Source of the DNA: Rhodococcus gordoniae
GTDB taxonomy: Bacteria > Actinomycetota > Actinomycetes > Mycobacteriales > Mycobacteriaceae
Assembly: GCF_001646655.1 (NCBI RefSeq)
Contig: NZ_LPZN01000002.1
Span: 62,001-126,000, forward strand
Length of the DNA stretch: 64,000 nt
Direction: 5' to 3'
Numbering within the stretch: the stretch's first letter is position 1; every line of letters starts with the position of its first letter. Under the pieces are notes generated by a model. It was not told where the DNA came from, ran no database searches, and saw only the letters and a list, made by a program, of their open reading frames with translations. Shown here one piece after another: positions 56,302-64,000 of the stretch. Both the position numbers and the translations under genes were made by a program.

Positions 56302-57366
56302 TCAGTTTTCCTTCGTACGGGTCGGAGCGGAGAGAGTCCAGCGGGCGGGAGTTCCACCGTCGGAACGGATGTCGCCTCGGTCGGCGAGGACGATGAGGTG
56401 AGCCTGGGTTTCGCGGACGGCGAGTCGCTGCAGTCGCGGGGTCATCACGTCGATGGGGCGCGACCATGTGACGCGGGTCGTGATCTCCCATGCGGTCGAT
56501 TCGGGACGGGCCGCGACGGTCTCGCGGATCTCGTCGAGGCGGACCTCGTGGTGATCCATGAGTTGGCGTGCGCGCTCGGTGATTCCGCGGAACCGGTACT
56601 CGTGGGCGGGCAGTACCTCGCAGTCGGGCAGTGCCGTCGTCGCGTGCAACGACAACAGGTAGCGGTGCAACGGGTCGACCAGTTCGCCGGGGCCCGAGGA
56701 GATGTTGGGACTGATGCGCGGAAGCATGTGGTCGCCGCTGAACAGCAGGTCGCGGTCGCGGTCGACGAACGCGAGGTGTCCGGGCGTGTGGCCGGGGGTC
56801 CACACCGCCTCGATGTTCCATCCGGGAACGTCCAGCCGATCACCTTGTGCGAGAACAATATCTGCGCTCTTCCCTTCCGGGAAACGTACGAGTTCGAAGC
56901 GGGCCGCCTCGACGACCTCGGGTGGAGCACCCAGCCCGGTGAGATCCACGCGCCACGCTTCCTCGTCGGCGGCGACGTCCTCCGGTGTGAAGTGCCCGAG
57001 GGCGGCGGCGTCGGCGGCGTGCATCGCGATGACGGCGCCGGTCGTCTCCTTCAACCGGGGTGCCAGGCCGAAATGGTCGGGATGCAGGTGGGTGATCGCG
57101 GCGTAGCGCACGTCGGTGATGTGATGGCCGGTCCCGGCGACACCGGCCACGAGGGCATCCCACGACTCCTCGGTGTCCATACCGAGGTCGATCAGGGCGA
57201 GGCCGTCGTCGAGGGCGAGCGCGTAGGACAGCACGTACCGCAGCGGGTTCTTCGGCATCGGGACCGGGATCGACCACAGTCCGGGCCGTACCTCTTCGAC
57301 CGGTGGCAGTACGCCGGCCGCCCACGCTTCACGCTGGACGGTACCGAGATCCTCGGTGACGATCAT
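56302..57366 (-). CDS. MBL-fold metallo-hydrolase
   Basis: The 354-residue protein has the metal signature THLHPDHFG (about residue 94), then WTPGHTPGHLAFV and FSGDHMLP, completing a dinuclear zinc site of the beta-lactamase fold. An extra C-terminal helical region (LDEIRETVAARPESTAWEITTRVTWSRPIDVM) resembles the winged-helix-like tail of LACTB2/YcbL-type hydrolases. It overlaps the ligase stop (ATGA) and lies one base from the hydratase gene. A thioesterase role on an acyl-CoA is possible but not shown. Confidence 0.9.
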   Translation of the reverse strand: MIVTEDLGTVQREAWAAGVLPPVEEVRPGLWSIPVPMPKNPLRYVLSYALALDDGLALIDLGMDTEESWDALVAGVAGTGHHITDVRYAAITHLHPDHFGLAPRLKETTGAVIAMHAADAAALGHFTPEDVAADEEAWRVDLTGLGAPPEVVEAARFELVRFPEGKSADIVLAQGDRLDVPGWNIEAVWTPGHTPGHLAFVDRDRDLLFSGDHMLPRISPNISSGPGELVDPLHRYLLSLHATTALPDCEVLPAHEYRFRGITERARQLMDHHEVRLDEIRETVAARPESTAWEITTRVTWSRPIDVMTPRLQRLAVRETQAHLIVLADRGDIRSDGGTPARWTLSAPTRTKEN

Positions 57367-58928
57367 GGCGTCGTTCCTTCCCGTGCGGGAGCGAACTCGT
57401 CGCGCAGTGTGCGCTTGAGGACCTTGCCGCTCGCGTTGCGGGGCAGTTCGTCGACGAAGTGGATGTGCCGGGGCTTCTTGTACGACGCCAGACGTTCGAG
57501 GGTGAACTCGAGGAGTTCGGCCTCGGTCGGTGCCTCGGCTCCGGGCGCGACCCGCACGACGGCGGTCACGGCTTCGCCCCAGCGGTCGTCCGGGACTCCC
57601 ACCACCGCGACCTCGGCGACGGAAGGGTGTTCGGAGATGACCGATTCGACCTCGATCGGGTAGACGTTCTCCCCGCCGGAGATGATCATGTCCTTCACGC
57701 GGTCGGTGACGAACAGGTAGCCGTCCTCGTCGATGTGCCCGGCATCTCCTGTGCGCAGGAAACCGTCCTCGGTGAACAGCTCGGCGTTCTCGGCCTCGCG
57801 CCGCCAATAACCCGGCGTGTTGTTGCGTGACCGGCTCACGATCTCGCCGGTTTCGCCCTGGGGGAGCGGTTCACCGGTGGCGAGGTCGCGGATCTGGACC
57901 TCCATGCCCGGCAGTCCGGTGCCGGCCGAGCGAAGGAGGTAGGAGCGCGGACCGTGCGGGTCGTGGTCGTCGGCACGCAGCGCGGTGAGAGCGCCCATCG
58001 TCTCGGTCATTCCGTAGCGTTGCACGAACCGGCAACCGAGGGTGTCCATGGCGCGGGCGAGGTGCGTGGGCGTGATGGGGGAGGCGCCGTAGGCGACGAG
58101 GTGCAGGCTCGACAGATCGTAGTCCGACAGGTCGGGCATCTCGACGAGCATGTTGATCACCGATGGCACGAGGAAGGCATGGGTGATGCCGTGTTCGGAG
58201 ATGGCGGCCGCCACCGCATCCGGGCGCATCTCGCCGAGCAGCACCAGATGCAGTCCGGCGGAGAGCGACGTGCTCATCCACCCGACGCCGGCGATGTGGA
58301 ACAGAGGTAGCGCGTCGAGTGAGACCGAGTCCTCGGTGAATTCGTACAGCGCGAAGCTCTGTGGTTCGTTGAACAGGTTGTGATGCGTCGCCACAACGCC
58401 TTTGGGGCGTCCGGTGGTGCCCGAAGTGTAGAGCTGCAGCACTTCGGTCCGCGGGTCGTCACCGAAACCGGGGTCGATGCCGTCGCCTGAGGCGACGAAG
58501 TCGTCCCACGACCGTGCGCCGGGAACAGAGGACGCGTCACCGACCACGACGATCTGCACACCGGGCAGCCCCTCGCCGGCGGCGCGCGCGGAGACGGCGA
58601 ACTCGTCCTCGACGATCAACACGTCGAGCTGCGCGTCGCCGGCGATGTCGGCGATCTCGCCTGGACTCAGGCGCCAGTTGAGCGGAGTGAACACCAGACC
58701 GGCCTTGGCGCAACCGACGAACGAGGCCGCACCGGGAAGGCCCATGCGCAGCAGTGCGCCCACGCGCCTGGAGGTGACCGGAACCGTCGTGAGCGCCGAG
58801 GCGACCCGGTTGGTGAGGGCGTCGAACTCGGAACAGGTGAGTGTCGTGCTGCCGGAGCTGACCGCCGCGCGATCCGGATGCTCTACTGCCAGCTGCCGAA
58901 TTCGGTTGGGAAGGTGCAACCTGCTCAC
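57363..58928 (-). CDS. AMP-dependent acyl-CoA synthetase (FadD-like)
   Basis: The 521-residue ANL ligase uses GTG 58928 after AGGAG. Motifs in order are LQLYTSGTTGRPKGVVATHHN, RYGMTETMGA, GFLRTGDAGHIDEDGYLFVTDRVKDMIISGGENVYP and ELPRNASGKVLKRTLRDEF (catalytic Lys). It is the first gene of a three-gene operon with MBL hydrolase and enoyl-CoA hydratase. The size and motifs fit medium-chain or aromatic acid activation. Substrate unknown. Confidence 0.95.
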   Translation of the reverse strand: MSRLHLPNRIRQLAVEHPDRAAVSSGSTTLTCSEFDALTNRVASALTTVPVTSRRVGALLRMGLPGAASFVGCAKAGLVFTPLNWRLSPGEIADIAGDAQLDVLIVEDEFAVSARAAGEGLPGVQIVVVGDASSVPGARSWDDFVASGDGIDPGFGDDPRTEVLQLYTSGTTGRPKGVVATHHNLFNEPQSFALYEFTEDSVSLDALPLFHIAGVGWMSTSLSAGLHLVLLGEMRPDAVAAAISEHGITHAFLVPSVINMLVEMPDLSDYDLSSLHLVAYGASPITPTHLARAMDTLGCRFVQRYGMTETMGALTALRADDHDPHGPRSYLLRSAGTGLPGMEVQIRDLATGEPLPQGETGEIVSRSRNNTPGYWRREAENAELFTEDGFLRTGDAGHIDEDGYLFVTDRVKDMIISGGENVYPIEVESVISEHPSVAEVAVVGVPDDRWGEAVTAVVRVAPGAEAPTEAELLEFTLERLASYKKPRHIHFVDELPRNASGKVLKRTLRDEFAPAREGTTP

Positions 58929-59081: not shown

Positions 59082-60575
59082 TCACTCCTGCAGAGAGTTT
59101 CCGCCCAGCGCGCCGCGCAGATGCTCGGTCTCTGCGGGCAGGCTGTCGGGTGTGAACGCCCAACGGCCTTCCGTCCACGGATCGGTCAGTTGTCCGTCCG
59201 CGGGCAGGTGCTGGGCTTCGCCCCGAAGGATCTGCACGACCGGATCGTCGTCGTCCGGTGGATCGCCCGCGAGGACGATCGAGATACGGCCGTCACCACC
59301 GGCTCTCGTGATCCGGACGATCTGCAGCAGGTCGTCGTGCTCGTAGCCGTACGGGAACCCGGCGAGGACGACGAGCACCGGCGACACCGGCAGCCCTCCG
59401 TCGACCTGTTGCGCGAGCGCGTCCAACTCTGCGGCATCGGCCAGGCCCCGGAGCTTCGCCGGGACCTGTGCCCGCTCGTGAACGGGCGGCCCGGCGAATC
59501 TCGCTGCGGTGAGAGGTTCGAGTTCGGGCAGGGTCCGCCCGGGATCGACGAGGTGCAACAGTGTGCCGGGCCGAGCGGCGAGCAGCCGCACGACCAGAGA
59601 CGAGACGACGGGAGCGAGTTCGGTGGGTTCGCCCTCGAGCCACAAGGGACGGACGAGCGGCGCCGGCAGGCACAACGGAATATGCAACAGCCCGCGATCC
59701 GCCGCCACATCACCTACGCGCACACCGTCGCTCGGCGTGAGGGATCGGATCCAGGCGGGAGAGCTCCAGGAGGCGAGAGCCGGCGGCAGGGCCGCATCGA
59801 CGGCGAGCAGTTCCGCAGCCAGCACTGCACTGTCGTTCCGGTAGCGTGTTTCGGCGGCGTCCACGAGTTCGTCGTAGCGCTGTTGCGCACGTTGTCTCGA
59901 CCGCTCGGCCTCGGGGCCGGTACGGCGGGCGGGGTCGGTTACCGCCGCCGAGAGTTCGTCGTCGAGTCGCAGCCGGGCGAACTCGAGGCTCGACGTGCAT
60001 GCGGCCGCCGAACGCGCGGCGTCCTCGAAGATCCGCCACAGCAGTTCGAGCGGCTCGAGTCCGACGGCCGGGGCGGGCGCCGTTTCCGAGTCGGAGGTCT
60101 TCTCCGGGGAGTCGTCCGCGTCGACCCCGTGGGCGGTGAACATCTCGACGAGTCCGCCGGTGTAACCCTGGCCGAGGGCGCGCACCTTCCACACGCCGTT
60201 ACGGCGGTAGATCTCCCAGCACAGCAAAGCCGTCTCGCCGGCGGCCCCGGGTTCCACGTGAAACGTCGCGAGTACCGTGCCGGCCGCATCGGACAGGGAG
60301 GTCGACACCGCAGCGGGTCGTTCGCAGCCGACCGCGCACAGCACACGTGCGCCGGGACGGACGGCGTCGACGTCGACGACGATCACCCCGTCCTCGAGCC
60401 GGACGCCTGTCGTCCTCGATCGGTTGCAGAACACGACATCGTCGGAGGAACCGACCTGCAGGTGGTCGTCCACGACGAACGCGCACACGTCCAGCGGGAC
60501 GGCGGCGGACGCCGTGACACGGACCGTGCTGGTCGCCAGCGGGGCATTCTGTCCCGCTGTGAAACGCTCGCCCAC
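59082..60575 (-). CDS. TerD-domain protein fused to a novel C-terminal domain
   Basis: The 497-residue protein begins with a TerD domain (residues 1 to about 155; LLCWEIYRRNGVWKVRALGQGYTGGLVEMFTAHGVD is diagnostic), then a helical Arg/Glu/Ala stretch (about 175-250), then a 240-residue domain with LLHIPLCLPAPLVRPLWLEGE, LVVRLLAARPGTLLHLVDPGRTLPELE and VLVVLAGFPYGYEHDDLLQIVRITRAGG. The last part resembles a degenerate FtsK/P-loop ATPase-like fold, but no Walker A is visible. TerD proteins bind calcium and act in stress systems. It is last in the module, three bases after the second TerD gene. Confidence 0.85.
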   Translation of the reverse strand: MGERFTAGQNAPLATSTVRVTASAAVPLDVCAFVVDDHLQVGSSDDVVFCNRSRTTGVRLEDGVIVVDVDAVRPGARVLCAVGCERPAAVSTSLSDAAGTVLATFHVEPGAAGETALLCWEIYRRNGVWKVRALGQGYTGGLVEMFTAHGVDADDSPEKTSDSETAPAPAVGLEPLELLWRIFEDAARSAAACTSSLEFARLRLDDELSAAVTDPARRTGPEAERSRQRAQQRYDELVDAAETRYRNDSAVLAAELLAVDAALPPALASWSSPAWIRSLTPSDGVRVGDVAADRGLLHIPLCLPAPLVRPLWLEGEPTELAPVVSSLVVRLLAARPGTLLHLVDPGRTLPELEPLTAARFAGPPVHERAQVPAKLRGLADAAELDALAQQVDGGLPVSPVLVVLAGFPYGYEHDDLLQIVRITRAGGDGRISIVLAGDPPDDDDPVVQILRGEAQHLPADGQLTDPWTEGRWAFTPDSLPAETEHLRGALGGNSLQE

Positions 60576-60578
60576 GGG

Positions 60579-61814
60579 CTACGAGACCAGGAACCGGCCC
60601 AGTTGCGGCGCGGCCTCACCGGGATGCTTCGCCTGTATGCCCTCACCGATGGCCTGCAGCTTCCACTCGCTGCCCTGGCGGTAGACCTTCGCCATCACCA
60701 TCCCCGTGAACGGCATGCCGCCCTGCAGCGTGTAGCGGGCGAGCTCGGTGTCGATCGTGCCGTCGACGAGGCGGCAGAATGCGTTCTGCACCTGCTCGAA
60801 GGTGTGGCCCTTGTAGGAGGTCACGATGAACATCACCGTGGTGACGTGGACGGGGACGCGGGTGAGGTCGACGAGCATGACCTCGTCGTCGCCCTCGCCG
60901 GCACCGGTGAGATTGTCGCCCTGGTGCCGGACCGATCCGTCCTTCGACTGCAGCTGGCCGTAGTACACGACGTCGGCGATCTGGTTGTCGGCGAACATCA
61001 CGGCCGAGGCGTCGAGGTCGATGTCGGCGGAGCGATTGCCGAACAGGCCGCGCTTCTCGACCGGATCCCAGCCGAGACCCATGCGCAGGAAGGTCAGCGC
61101 GACGCCGCCGTCCTTGCGCAGGGTGACTTTCTGACCCTTCACCAGGCTCACCGGACGGTTCTTCGTCAGACTGACCTCGGCGGGCTGTGCAGGCTGTGCC
61201 GGAGGCGGGGTGTGTGCCGGAGGCGGGGTCGGCTGCACCGGCGGAGGGGGCGTGGCAGCGACGGGCTGCGGTGCGGCCGCCGGCTGAGCGGGAGCGTCGT
61301 CGACGCTGACGCCGTGGTCGGTCACCAGCGCCGCGAATCCGCCCGCATATCCCTGCCCCACGGCGCGGACCTTCCACGCACCCTGACGCCGGTACAGCTC
61401 CAGCGCGATGACGATGGATTCGCTGCTCAGTCCGTCGATCCGGTACTCGTACAGCACGGTTCCACTGCTGTCGGACACCCGCGCGGTGGGCGGCGCGAAC
61501 CGGCCGAAGTTGCTCGACGCGTCGTCGAGAGTGATCACGGCGCGCACCTGATCGATGTCGGCGGGCACCTGCGCGAGCGACACGGCGAGCGACGCGGCCT
61601 GACCGGGCGCCCCGGAAACGAGGCGCACGCCCGGTCCCGTGGGCTGGTTGAAGAAGACGAAGTCGGCGTCGGAACGCACCTTGCCGTCGGCCTTGACGAG
61701 CAGTGCGGACAGATCGGCAGGGGTGGTCAGCTCGAGCGAGACGACGACGTCGGACGCGGTGATCGGTCCGTTCTGACCCTTGGAGAGCGGAGTCGGCAAG
61801 AGATGTGTCCTCAC
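60579..61814 (-). CDS. TerD-family protein with two TerD domains
   Basis: The 411-residue protein has TerD domain 1 (about residues 1-170; IVIALELYRRQGAWKVRAVGQGYAGGFAALVTDHGV), a Pro/Ala-rich linker (about 175-215), and TerD domain 2 (VSLVKGQKVTLRKDGGVALTFLRMGLGWDP, ADIDLDASAVMFADN, HQGDNLTGAGEGDDEVMLVDL). The acidic DxDLDxS and GDNLTGxGxGDDE loops are the usual Ca-binding residues of the family. GTG 61814 is the start; the ribosome site is weak. It shares the operon with the HAD and PRTase genes. Confidence 0.92.
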   Translation of the reverse strand: MRTHLLPTPLSKGQNGPITASDVVVSLELTTPADLSALLVKADGKVRSDADFVFFNQPTGPGVRLVSGAPGQAASLAVSLAQVPADIDQVRAVITLDDASSNFGRFAPPTARVSDSSGTVLYEYRIDGLSSESIVIALELYRRQGAWKVRAVGQGYAGGFAALVTDHGVSVDDAPAQPAAAPQPVAATPPPPVQPTPPPAHTPPPAQPAQPAEVSLTKNRPVSLVKGQKVTLRKDGGVALTFLRMGLGWDPVEKRGLFGNRSADIDLDASAVMFADNQIADVVYYGQLQSKDGSVRHQGDNLTGAGEGDDEVMLVDLTRVPVHVTTVMFIVTSYKGHTFEQVQNAFCRLVDGTIDTELARYTLQGGMPFTGMVMAKVYRQGSEWKLQAIGEGIQAKHPGEAAPQLGRFLVS

Positions 61815-61841
61815 TGTGTCGGTGACCGGGCGCCTTCTACT

Positions 61842-62687
61842 CTACGAAGCGGCCGGAAGACGAGCGGATCGGGCGAACCAGGCGAGGATCTCCTCCCCGG
61901 CCGTGACGCCCGCAGCGCCGGTCACCGACACCGTCGGGTGGCACCAGTCCATCAGTTCGAGTTCGCCGTGACGAGGCCGGATCGCGGCATCCGCGGCCTT
62001 GAGCATCTCCGCGTCGAGCGCGCCGTCGCCCGCGGCCAGGACGGGCGCATCGTCCGTGAGCACCCCCCGATCTCGGAGCCTGCGGCGCACCTCCGCCACC
62101 GCGCGGCTCTTGCACACGCTGTTCGGCATCGTGTAGATCTTGCGGCCCTGCTGCGACGCGTTCCAGCCCCGCGCCGAACACCAGTCGTGCCAGTCGTCGA
62201 GGAATCCGGCAGGTTGCGCTGCGACGTCGACGACGAGATAGCAGAACAACTCGTCGGCGATGCGGAACTTCGACACCCAGTCCTCGGAGATGCGACTGCG
62301 CAGTTCGGTCGTGATCTCGTCGAGGCTCGCACCCCCCTCACGTACCGCCGACTCCACGGTTCTGCGCCAGAGTGGGTCGAGATGTCCGTCCTCGAGGATC
62401 GACCCACCGTTGCTCGCGATGGCGTACCGCCACGGGCCGCCGGGGAGGTCGATGCGGCGGAACTGTTCGGGTGTGCGCGTGGTCGTCGGTACCACCGCCG
62501 CCTCGTCGGCGAGGGCACGTAGTTGTCGGGCTGCGCCGTCGGTGACGTACGACAGCGGTGCACCCTCGTAGTACTCGACACACAGCAGGTCCTGCGTGGC
62601 GAACTGGTCGCCGGTCATCGCGGCGCGCGAATAGATGAGGGTGCGGTCGAGGTCGGTGGCGACCAGTGCAGGCACAGGGGTGTTCAC
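61842..62687 (-). CDS. HAD-superfamily hydrolase of the Ter module
   Basis: The 281-residue phosphatase starts at GTG 62687, overlapping the PRTase stop (GTGA), with AAGGA upstream. Motif I is DLDRTL (nucleophile Asp near residue 10), the cap follows with AIASNGGSILEDG, and motif IV is GDGALDAEM. The Cof-like fold fits sugar- or nucleotide-phosphate phosphatases. In published analyses of Ter systems such an HAD is part of a predicted nucleoside-like metabolite pathway with the neighbouring PRTase. Substrate unknown. Confidence 0.9.
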   Translation of the reverse strand: MNTPVPALVATDLDRTLIYSRAAMTGDQFATQDLLCVEYYEGAPLSYVTDGAARQLRALADEAAVVPTTTRTPEQFRRIDLPGGPWRYAIASNGGSILEDGHLDPLWRRTVESAVREGGASLDEITTELRSRISEDWVSKFRIADELFCYLVVDVAAQPAGFLDDWHDWCSARGWNASQQGRKIYTMPNSVCKSRAVAEVRRRLRDRGVLTDDAPVLAAGDGALDAEMLKAADAAIRPRHGELELMDWCHPTVSVTGAAGVTAGEEILAWFARSARLPAAS

Positions 62688-63790
62688 GGCAGGTCCTTGA
62701 TCAGTCCCATACAGGAGTAGGCGAGGTCGGGGACCTCCTCGACGGGGACGTTCCGGGCAGCCGCGAGCATGCGGATGTGGGCGTGTTCGTCCGACGTGAT
62801 GTCGCGCACCAGCACCTTCCAGGGAACGCGGCGCAACAGCACACGAGTCGTCTCCCCGACACCGGGTTTGACGAAGTTGACGCTCGAGATTCCGTACTGT
62901 GCCCGTACTCGTTCGACGGACTCCCAGCCGGCCCAGGTGGGCGTGCGGTCGGAATCGAGCACCGCCCGTGCGGCCGAGTCGACGTCCCCGCACGTGTCGA
63001 ACTCCGCGGTCACAGCGTCGAGCAAGTGATTCGACACGTCGTCGGAAGCCAGCTCGGAGTAGAACTTCGCCCCGTGGAACTCGCCGGGGCCGATCAGCGT
63101 GTCGTTGAGGACCGTCCGTGACACCAAGCCGGAGACGGTGGAGTTCAGGCAGGCCGAGGCGATGAGGAAGTCGTCGCGCGTGCCGTAGGTGCGTACGCAG
63201 TGGCCGGGGTCCGCGAGCACGGCGAGATCGTCGGACAGGCCGGGGCCACCGCGCGCGGCGTATTCGGCGAGGGCGGCGGACAGTTCGCGTGCGATCGCCC
63301 CCTTACCGGTCCAGCCGTCGACGAAGACGACGGATTCGGGGTCGTGTCGCTCGGTAACGTAATCCAGGGCAGCGCAGTCGATTCCGCGCCCGCGAACGAT
63401 CGATGCCGTGTAGTGCGGCAGCGACAGGCCGTGCCGACGCAACGCCCACCGGCGGATCAGGATGCCGATGGGGGTGCCCGCCCGCGCGAGCGACACGAGG
63501 GTCAGGTCCGTCCCGCGTTCGGCGAGAAGCAGTTCGGTGACCGTGCCCACCGCATGCGCCAACCGGCCGGCTGTCGTGGCCAGTGCCTTGTCGAACAGTT
63601 CGCGATAGGCGGCGTCGGGCTGGTACTCGATCGGCAGGGACTCGGCGTAGTGCGCGAGACCCGCCTGGATCCGTGCCTCGCGTTCGGCGATGTCGCCCTC
63701 GAGGTCGACGTGGGAGAGGTCCTCGAGCAGCCACGTCACCTCGTCGGGTGCGTAGGAGCCGAACTCGGGTCCGGTGAGCGGCACGGTCAT
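62684..63790 (-). CDS. Phosphoribosyltransferase/PELOTA-type Ter protein ('cysteine protease StiP' family)
   Basis: The 368-residue protein starts at ATG 63790, overlapping the previous stop. The N-terminus FGSYAPDEVTWLLEDLS matches the family usually labelled StiP. The PRPP-binding loop is VVFVDGWTGKGAI, with VSLARAGTPIGILIRRWA before it. The C-terminal 90 residues (ISSVNFVKPGVGETTRVLLRRVPWKVLVRD) look like a PELOTA-type RNA-binding module. Comparative studies predict it transfers phosphoribose in a Ter-linked nucleoside-like pathway. I see no protease triad. Confidence 0.9.
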   Translation of the reverse strand: MTVPLTGPEFGSYAPDEVTWLLEDLSHVDLEGDIAEREARIQAGLAHYAESLPIEYQPDAAYRELFDKALATTAGRLAHAVGTVTELLLAERGTDLTLVSLARAGTPIGILIRRWALRRHGLSLPHYTASIVRGRGIDCAALDYVTERHDPESVVFVDGWTGKGAIARELSAALAEYAARGGPGLSDDLAVLADPGHCVRTYGTRDDFLIASACLNSTVSGLVSRTVLNDTLIGPGEFHGAKFYSELASDDVSNHLLDAVTAEFDTCGDVDSAARAVLDSDRTPTWAGWESVERVRAQYGISSVNFVKPGVGETTRVLLRRVPWKVLVRDITSDEHAHIRMLAAARNVPVEEVPDLAYSCMGLIKDLP

Positions 63791-64000
63791 GAAATCTCCC
63801 TGTGGGTGCGCAGCACCGTCGGATCGGTTGCGGGCACGACCGCGACGAGGACGTCCTCGCCGGCTGCGGTGAGCACGTCGAGAACACCTCCCGGTGCGTG
63901 GAGGCGGTCGGTGTCGGCGGGCGAATCGATCACGAGGATCAGCTCGGGCCGGACCTCGGTCGGGGTGGGCCACTGCGCGTTGTAGAGATAGCGCGGCACC
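63787..64000 (-). CDS. Partial gene at window end, upstream member of the Ter module
   Basis: The frame is open through the last base, so the gene extends past the window; its last 71 or so residues are visible. PRYLYNAQWPTPTEVRPELILVIDSP resembles the C-terminal TRSP part of Ter-linked phosphoribosyltransferases, where a YLYN motif recurs, but this is a weak match. Its stop overlaps the StiP-type start by four bases, so it is the preceding gene of the same operon. Its full function cannot be stated. Confidence 0.6.
   Translation of the reverse strand, partial: VPRYLYNAQWPTPTEVRPELILVIDSPADTDRLHAPGGVLDVLTAAGEDVLVAVVPATDPTVLRTHREIS

Follow-up and report, generated by a model that had tools for sequence, protein, structure and literature searches.

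A conserved Ter-type stress operon of Rhodococcus gordoniae with four enzyme genes and two candidate scaffold proteins

Results

Gene content and organization of the locus

The DNA analysed here, called the window, is a stretch of 64,000 nucleotides (C37:62001-126000 of a 4.8 Mb genome), and its right-hand end carries the five minus-strand genes delimited by an earlier sequence-only reading (ORFs 59082-60575, 60579-61814, 61842-62687 and. That reading had supposed that the window cuts an operon; indeed, reading past 64000 completes it. The extended locus is numbered as L008 (C37:119001-138000), in which a position becomes a window coordinate by adding 57000. Its main features are the following:

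59082-60575, minus: TerD fusion, 497 aa, with a degenerate TerD, a helical stalk and an FtsK/EccC-like fold, most likely a pseudo-ATPase
60102-60575, minus: degenerate N-terminal TerD domain of the fusion protein, with no metal-loop motifs (Pfam TerD half-domain, 2e-14)
59796-60053, minus: stalk of the fusion, a helical hairpin (model residues 4-89)
59085-59777, minus: FtsK/EccC-like P-loop fold of the fusion, without Walker A (model residues 96-326)
60579-61814, minus: double TerD protein, 411 aa (Pfam TerD, 3.5e-79)
61842-62687, minus: HAD-IIB phosphatase-like protein, 281 aa, with a GTG start and a 4-base overlap with the StiP stop
62684-63790, minus: StiP (PRTase-fold) and PELOTA_1 protein, 368 aa, listed in databases as 'cysteine protease StiP'
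63011-63760, minus: StiP domain, read as PRPP-binding and PRTase-like (Pfam StiP, 7e-104; PyrR, Z 9.9)
62696-62935, minus: PELOTA_1 domain of the StiP protein (Pfam, 8e-36)
63787-64000, minus: 3' part of the PRTase_2 and TRSP gene (whole gene L008:6787-8064, 425 aa)
L008:11341-12447, plus (divergent): TerC/DUF475 protein (DUF475, 8.8e-132; TerC, 6.3e-17)

In the order of transcription, the minus strand encodes Hel, a CitE-like lyase, the PRTase_2/TRSP protein (PRT2), StiP/PELOTA, the HAD protein, the double TerD and the TerD fusion; the plus strand, divergent from this operon, encodes a TerD, the TerC/DUF475 protein and a TerD-like protein without a Pfam match. The genes are as tightly coupled as had been proposed, with overlaps of 4 bases at the Hel/CitE, CitE/PRT2, PRT2/StiP and StiP/HAD junctions and gaps of 27 bases between HAD and the double TerD and of 3 bases between the latter and the fusion, after which the next gene is 153 bases away. 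Such overlaps would be consistent with a single transcript across the operon.

The attribution of these genes to a Ter-type module also stands, as Pfam matches both the TerD and TerC families at the locus, PF02342 (TerD) being found in the double TerD, the TerD fusion and the divergent TerD. The partial gene encodes a PRTase_2 and TRSP protein (PRTase_2, PF15609, 2.6e-61; TRSP, PF12500, 1.4e-29), and the protein described as PRTase/PELOTA carries the StiP and PELOTA_1 domains. The putative HAD phosphatase has no Pfam match, but it gives weak NCBIfam HAD-IIB matches (4e-8) and its motifs DLDRT and GDGALD are intact. Four further genes had been named as possible beyond 64000: the CitE-like C-C_Bond_Lyase (PF15617, 8.2e-121) and TerC are indeed encoded there, but ATP-grasp and vWA genes are not, and in their place we found the unannotated coiled-coil gene, Hel. 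On the opposite strand, an ORF of 1133 aa (59121-62522, plus) runs across the TerD and HAD genes and resembles a high-GC shadow frame more than a gene.

The divergent intergenic region between Hel and TerD is roughly 150-190 bp long in most relatives, many of which have a TAnnAT hexamer just 5' of the aligned Hel start. In this genome TACCAT precedes the GTG at L008:10447, which suggests the shorter Hel start at this codon and perhaps a leaderless message, the signal being a sequence pattern and not a mapped promoter. A sigma-70 promoter scan of the locus found none, and a terminator scan gave few sites beyond those in shuffled sequences, with the exception of one strong hairpin after TerC. 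This perfect 20-pair hairpin (L008:12472-12517), located between TerC and the TerD-like gene and followed by a short T run, is likely a terminator, and the TerD-like gene would then start downstream of it, at about L008:12570. An Rfam search gave no match.

Conservation and co-occurrence

The order Hel-CitE-PRT2-StiP-HAD-double TerD-TerD fusion with a divergent TerD-TerC pair recurs in Rhodococcus, Nocardia, Williamsia, Kitasatospora and others. Rhodococcus jostii (L133) is a non-pathogenic carrier of the complete operon. As the same gene order is found both in family neighbourhoods and in the 80 named loci, compared as far as each contig reaches, the operon is not a chance arrangement. Two Nocardia loci have the TerD pair and the block of enzyme genes pointing towards each other. 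The order CitE-PRT2-StiP-HAD is also kept in ten additional loci from more distant actinomycetes, and in four of them (L182-L185) this enzyme core occurs alone, no ter gene lying closer than about 6 kb. The four-enzyme set is thus a shared actinobacterial core, and one that can stand alone. Several relatives have three tandem AIM24-like genes within or next to the ter locus (L042:16866-18960, L043:3563-5645, L048:2119-4202, L051:3713-5829 and L052:2575-4635), and none was seen in the ter locus of the window itself.

StiP scored above the cut-off in 92 of 395 Actinomycetes genomes. Hel is present in 56 of the 395, all of which also have StiP (hypergeometric 8e-44, uncorrected for shared ancestry), and the same is true of the C-terminal part of the fusion, found in 43 genomes and with StiP in every one (5e-32, likewise uncorrected). 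In Streptomyces-like genomes (f21), hundreds of kilobases separate the fusion homologue from the operon (in G077, 2.32 versus 2.81 Mb), so the co-occurrence there is not simple linkage. Rhodococcus coprophilus and R. phenolicus, of the family Nocardiaceae, are the nearest named relatives with a TerD fusion (about 54% identity).

Components not found at the locus

The ATP-grasp model PF15632 gave no match over the cut-off in this genome, and the same model scored 128.6 bits on the ATP-grasp of an E. coli plasmid ter locus, used as a control. Weak partial matches to ORFs of 1071-1114 aa, carbamoyl-phosphate-synthase-like by their length, were rejected. None of 26 related genomes has an ATP-grasp gene at the ter locus: the strong matches among relatives G011, G028 and G077 lie outside it, and those in G126 and G243 are on separate contigs. 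An AMP-ligase gene downstream of the operon (57363-58928) was considered as the missing ligase and excluded, since only in the closest Rhodococcus relatives is it near the operon, and there its distance varies. Furthermore, a TerF-type vWA gene is missing from this locus, although other actinobacterial loci have one, and no TerB family match was obtained among the ten proteins of the locus. Taken together, the ATP-grasp results suggest that this step is not a requirement of the Ter pathway.

The enzymes

The PRTase_2/TRSP protein has a canonical PRPP loop (LVLVDDEISTGAT). StiP is named a cysteine protease by both Pfam and NCBI. Its AlphaFold model (pLDDT 83) gives its best alignments with PyrR and HGPRT, which are type I PRTases (Z 9-10; rmsd about 3-5 A); Foldseek ranked PLP enzymes at the top, with TM values no higher than about 0.2, and these rows were passed over for the PRTase ones. 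At the position of the PRPP loop lies FVDGWTGKGAI, the longest StiP motif that is invariant from Actinobacteria to E. coli, and SLxRAGxPxG sits at the position of the pyrophosphate loop. We read StiP as a PRTase-like enzyme whose loop is non-canonical: the sequence DGWTGKGAI is not the usual type I motif, and StiP may therefore bind PRPP without transferring it.

The TerD proteins, the fusion and Hel

The first TerD of the double TerD protein is without the acidic metal-loop motifs, and the second retains DLDAS and GDNLTGAGEGDDE. Residues 1-158 of the fusion form a degenerate TerD, which an alignment to E. coli TerD/TerE and to the divergent TerD shows to be without the DxDxxA and GDNxTGxGxGDDE loops. 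The remainder (residues 172-497), modelled by AlphaFold with 44 homologues (pLDDT 93.3), is predicted to consist of a P-loop fold and a stalk of two helices. By Foldseek and VIA-align, this model is closest to EccC ATPase 2 (4nh0_B; Z 17.1 over 220 residues at 3.0 A) and FtsK (Z 16.5), with HerA at 11.7 and RecA-type folds at about 10; stalk and domain together can also be aligned with the stalk and DUF region of EccC from ESX complexes (Z about 12.5, rmsd about 5-6 A).

The fusion thus has in common with the EccC/FtsK translocase ATPases a predicted fold (Z about 17) and a stalk-plus-DUF arrangement, but it differs from them in being joined to TerD and in lacking Walker A, and the likeness is not seen at the sequence level, no sequence profile having detected FtsK. 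Walker A is found in 0 of 45 aligned homologues, and the Walker B aspartate, present in many of them (ADFP), has been lost in the clade of the window. The C-terminal domain, as modelled, is therefore most likely a pseudo-ATPase, and the TerD fusion as a whole probably a non-catalytic scaffold. A Walker-A-less EccC/FtsK-like domain is an unexpected part in a stress operon.

Hel, at the head of the operon, is a coiled-coil protein of 399-409 aa with no Pfam or NCBIfam match. A profile search returned only weak coiled-coil matches (EzrA 6e-5, talin), which were not accepted as homology. An assignment to TelA (PF05816) was also rejected, with no Pfam match and an hhalign probability of 0.4%, the TelA side consisting of two sequences only; TelA is moreover absent from this genome. 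It is a long helical protein found near Ter genes in related loci without Hel (L054:11305-13601 and L060:11034-13316), where TelA, a small protein of ~160 aa and a lone TerD head the enzyme block.

Discussion

A real stress operon, widely conserved among Rhodococcus-type bacteria, is present at this locus, and it probably makes a small nucleotide-like molecule. The founding account of the Ter-dependent stress response and its biosynthetic module is reportedly that of Anantharaman, Iyer and Aravind in 2012. Our literature searches, outside which this paper fell, gave no paper naming the product, and the earlier description of such systems as among the least understood is a fair one.

In Ter systems, PRTase and HAD enzymes are described as making a nucleoside or nucleotide derivative, with TerB and TerD as ligand sensors and TerC at the membrane (PMC7824862, PMC8115787). 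According to these two papers, the module contains PRTase_2/TRSP, StiP/PELOTA, HAD, C-C_Bond_Lyase, TerD and TerC in two divergent halves, all of which are shared by the operon described here; compared with that account, our locus is without ATP-grasp and TerF-type vWA and adds Hel and the TerD-pseudo-ATPase fusion. The ATP-grasp, present in the enterobacterial form, is not in the component list of PMC7824862 and was not counted as defining. The operon is thus best read as a variant, found in actinobacteria, of the Ter biosynthetic system already published. We keep the novelty of Hel and the fusion at the level of a variant, as the 2012 paper may already mention them.

Two known loci can be compared with this variant. 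The ter locus of the E. coli IncHI2 plasmid pMADE-1 (NZ_CP086679) also encodes these four enzyme families next to divergent genes of the terZABCDE type, but in the order ATP-grasp, PRT2, HAD, StiP, CitE instead of Hel, CitE, PRT2, StiP, HAD, and its StiP is about 38% identical to that of the window. As the E. coli form has an ATP-grasp and the form studied here has none, their products may differ. An operon of our type is also found on the Prescottella equi soil plasmid p1-WH99 (NZ_CP121764, L180), where a hypothetical protein at the Hel position is followed by CitE, PRT, StiP, HAD and two TerD, and where no ATP-grasp is annotated. However, this locus is on a 432 kb plasmid and includes TerB and two TerD-vWA (TerF-like) genes.

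We propose, with a probability of about 0.6, that the operon is an actinobacterial Ter-dependent stress system, in which a four-enzyme metabolite route works with TerD and TerC proteins and with a scaffold formed by Hel and the fusion. The CitE-type C-C bond lyase, PRTase_2/TRSP, StiP-PELOTA and HAD phosphatase would make or modify a small metabolite; in the most likely route, a PRPP-derived ribosyl group would be joined to a base-like acceptor, a C-C bond cleaved and a phosphate removed. The TerD proteins would bind metal or the pathway product, and the divergently transcribed TerC may handle metal (Mn-type) at the membrane. Hel and the fusion, both without a recognisable enzyme domain or active site and thus apparently non-enzymatic, are most simply explained as a scaffold that would join the enzymes and the TerD sensors, perhaps near the membrane. 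They could also be linked for regulatory rather than structural reasons, and TelA and Hel may be alternative helical partners. We infer this chemistry, as well as the scaffold role, the membrane site and the physiological trigger; the product is likewise a prediction, as would be any tie to tellurite, manganese or phage resistance.

Could the metal-related genes carry the function instead? In B. subtilis, TerC proteins metalate exported enzymes and export Mn (PMC10550928), and the terZ-F half by itself gives tellurite resistance in Klebsiella and E. coli (PMC8115787); moreover, the divergent TerD-TerC unit is kept beside the enzymes. A metal or oxyanion homeostasis operon, whose enzymes make a metal-binding molecule (metallophore or chelate) and not a signal, would account for these facts. 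However, the absence of a nearby ter gene from the core in L182-L185 argues that the core has its own role, and two PRTases and a phosphatase would be easier to reconcile with a nucleotide-type product than with a typical chelator, so that we consider this explanation rather unlikely. Another possibility is a defence system against phages or mobile elements in which the TerD proteins sense a nucleotide messenger made by the enzymes: Ter systems have been linked to phage and colicin resistance and proposed to signal via nucleoside derivatives (PMC7824862), and TerD is listed as a nucleotide-derivative binder (PMC7159879). Yet PADLOC models match none of the ten proteins of the locus, Pfam recognises no nuclease, pore or other killer gene in the operon, and a synteny that is stable across genera resembles core stress physiology more than a variable defence island, which makes a defence role decidedly improbable.

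The scheme would also change if StiP were, as its Pfam and NCBI name implies, a cysteine protease acting on Ter proteins and not in biosynthesis. Conservation as far as E. coli does extend to one Cys (in PG-C) and several His, but the modelled PRTase fold with its PyrR/HGPRT-type neighbours, and the fact that the longest invariant motif is the PRPP-type loop, together with SLxRAGxPxG, leave little credit to this activity and support StiP as a PRTase.

In conclusion, the actinobacterial enzyme set is narrowed to four genes, which could be cloned together as a single coupled unit from non-pathogenic Rhodococcus or Streptomyces, and two unannotated partners, Hel and the TerD-pseudo-ATPase, are named as scaffold candidates. 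A bolder version of the Ter reading, which we hold only tentatively, is that Actinobacteria run the pathway as a four-enzyme, ATP-grasp-free route on a scaffold made of Hel and a TerD-EccC-like pseudo-translocase, a motor without ATP binding that would serve as an assembly or sensing platform. If true, this would be a Ter signalling body of a sort not described so far.
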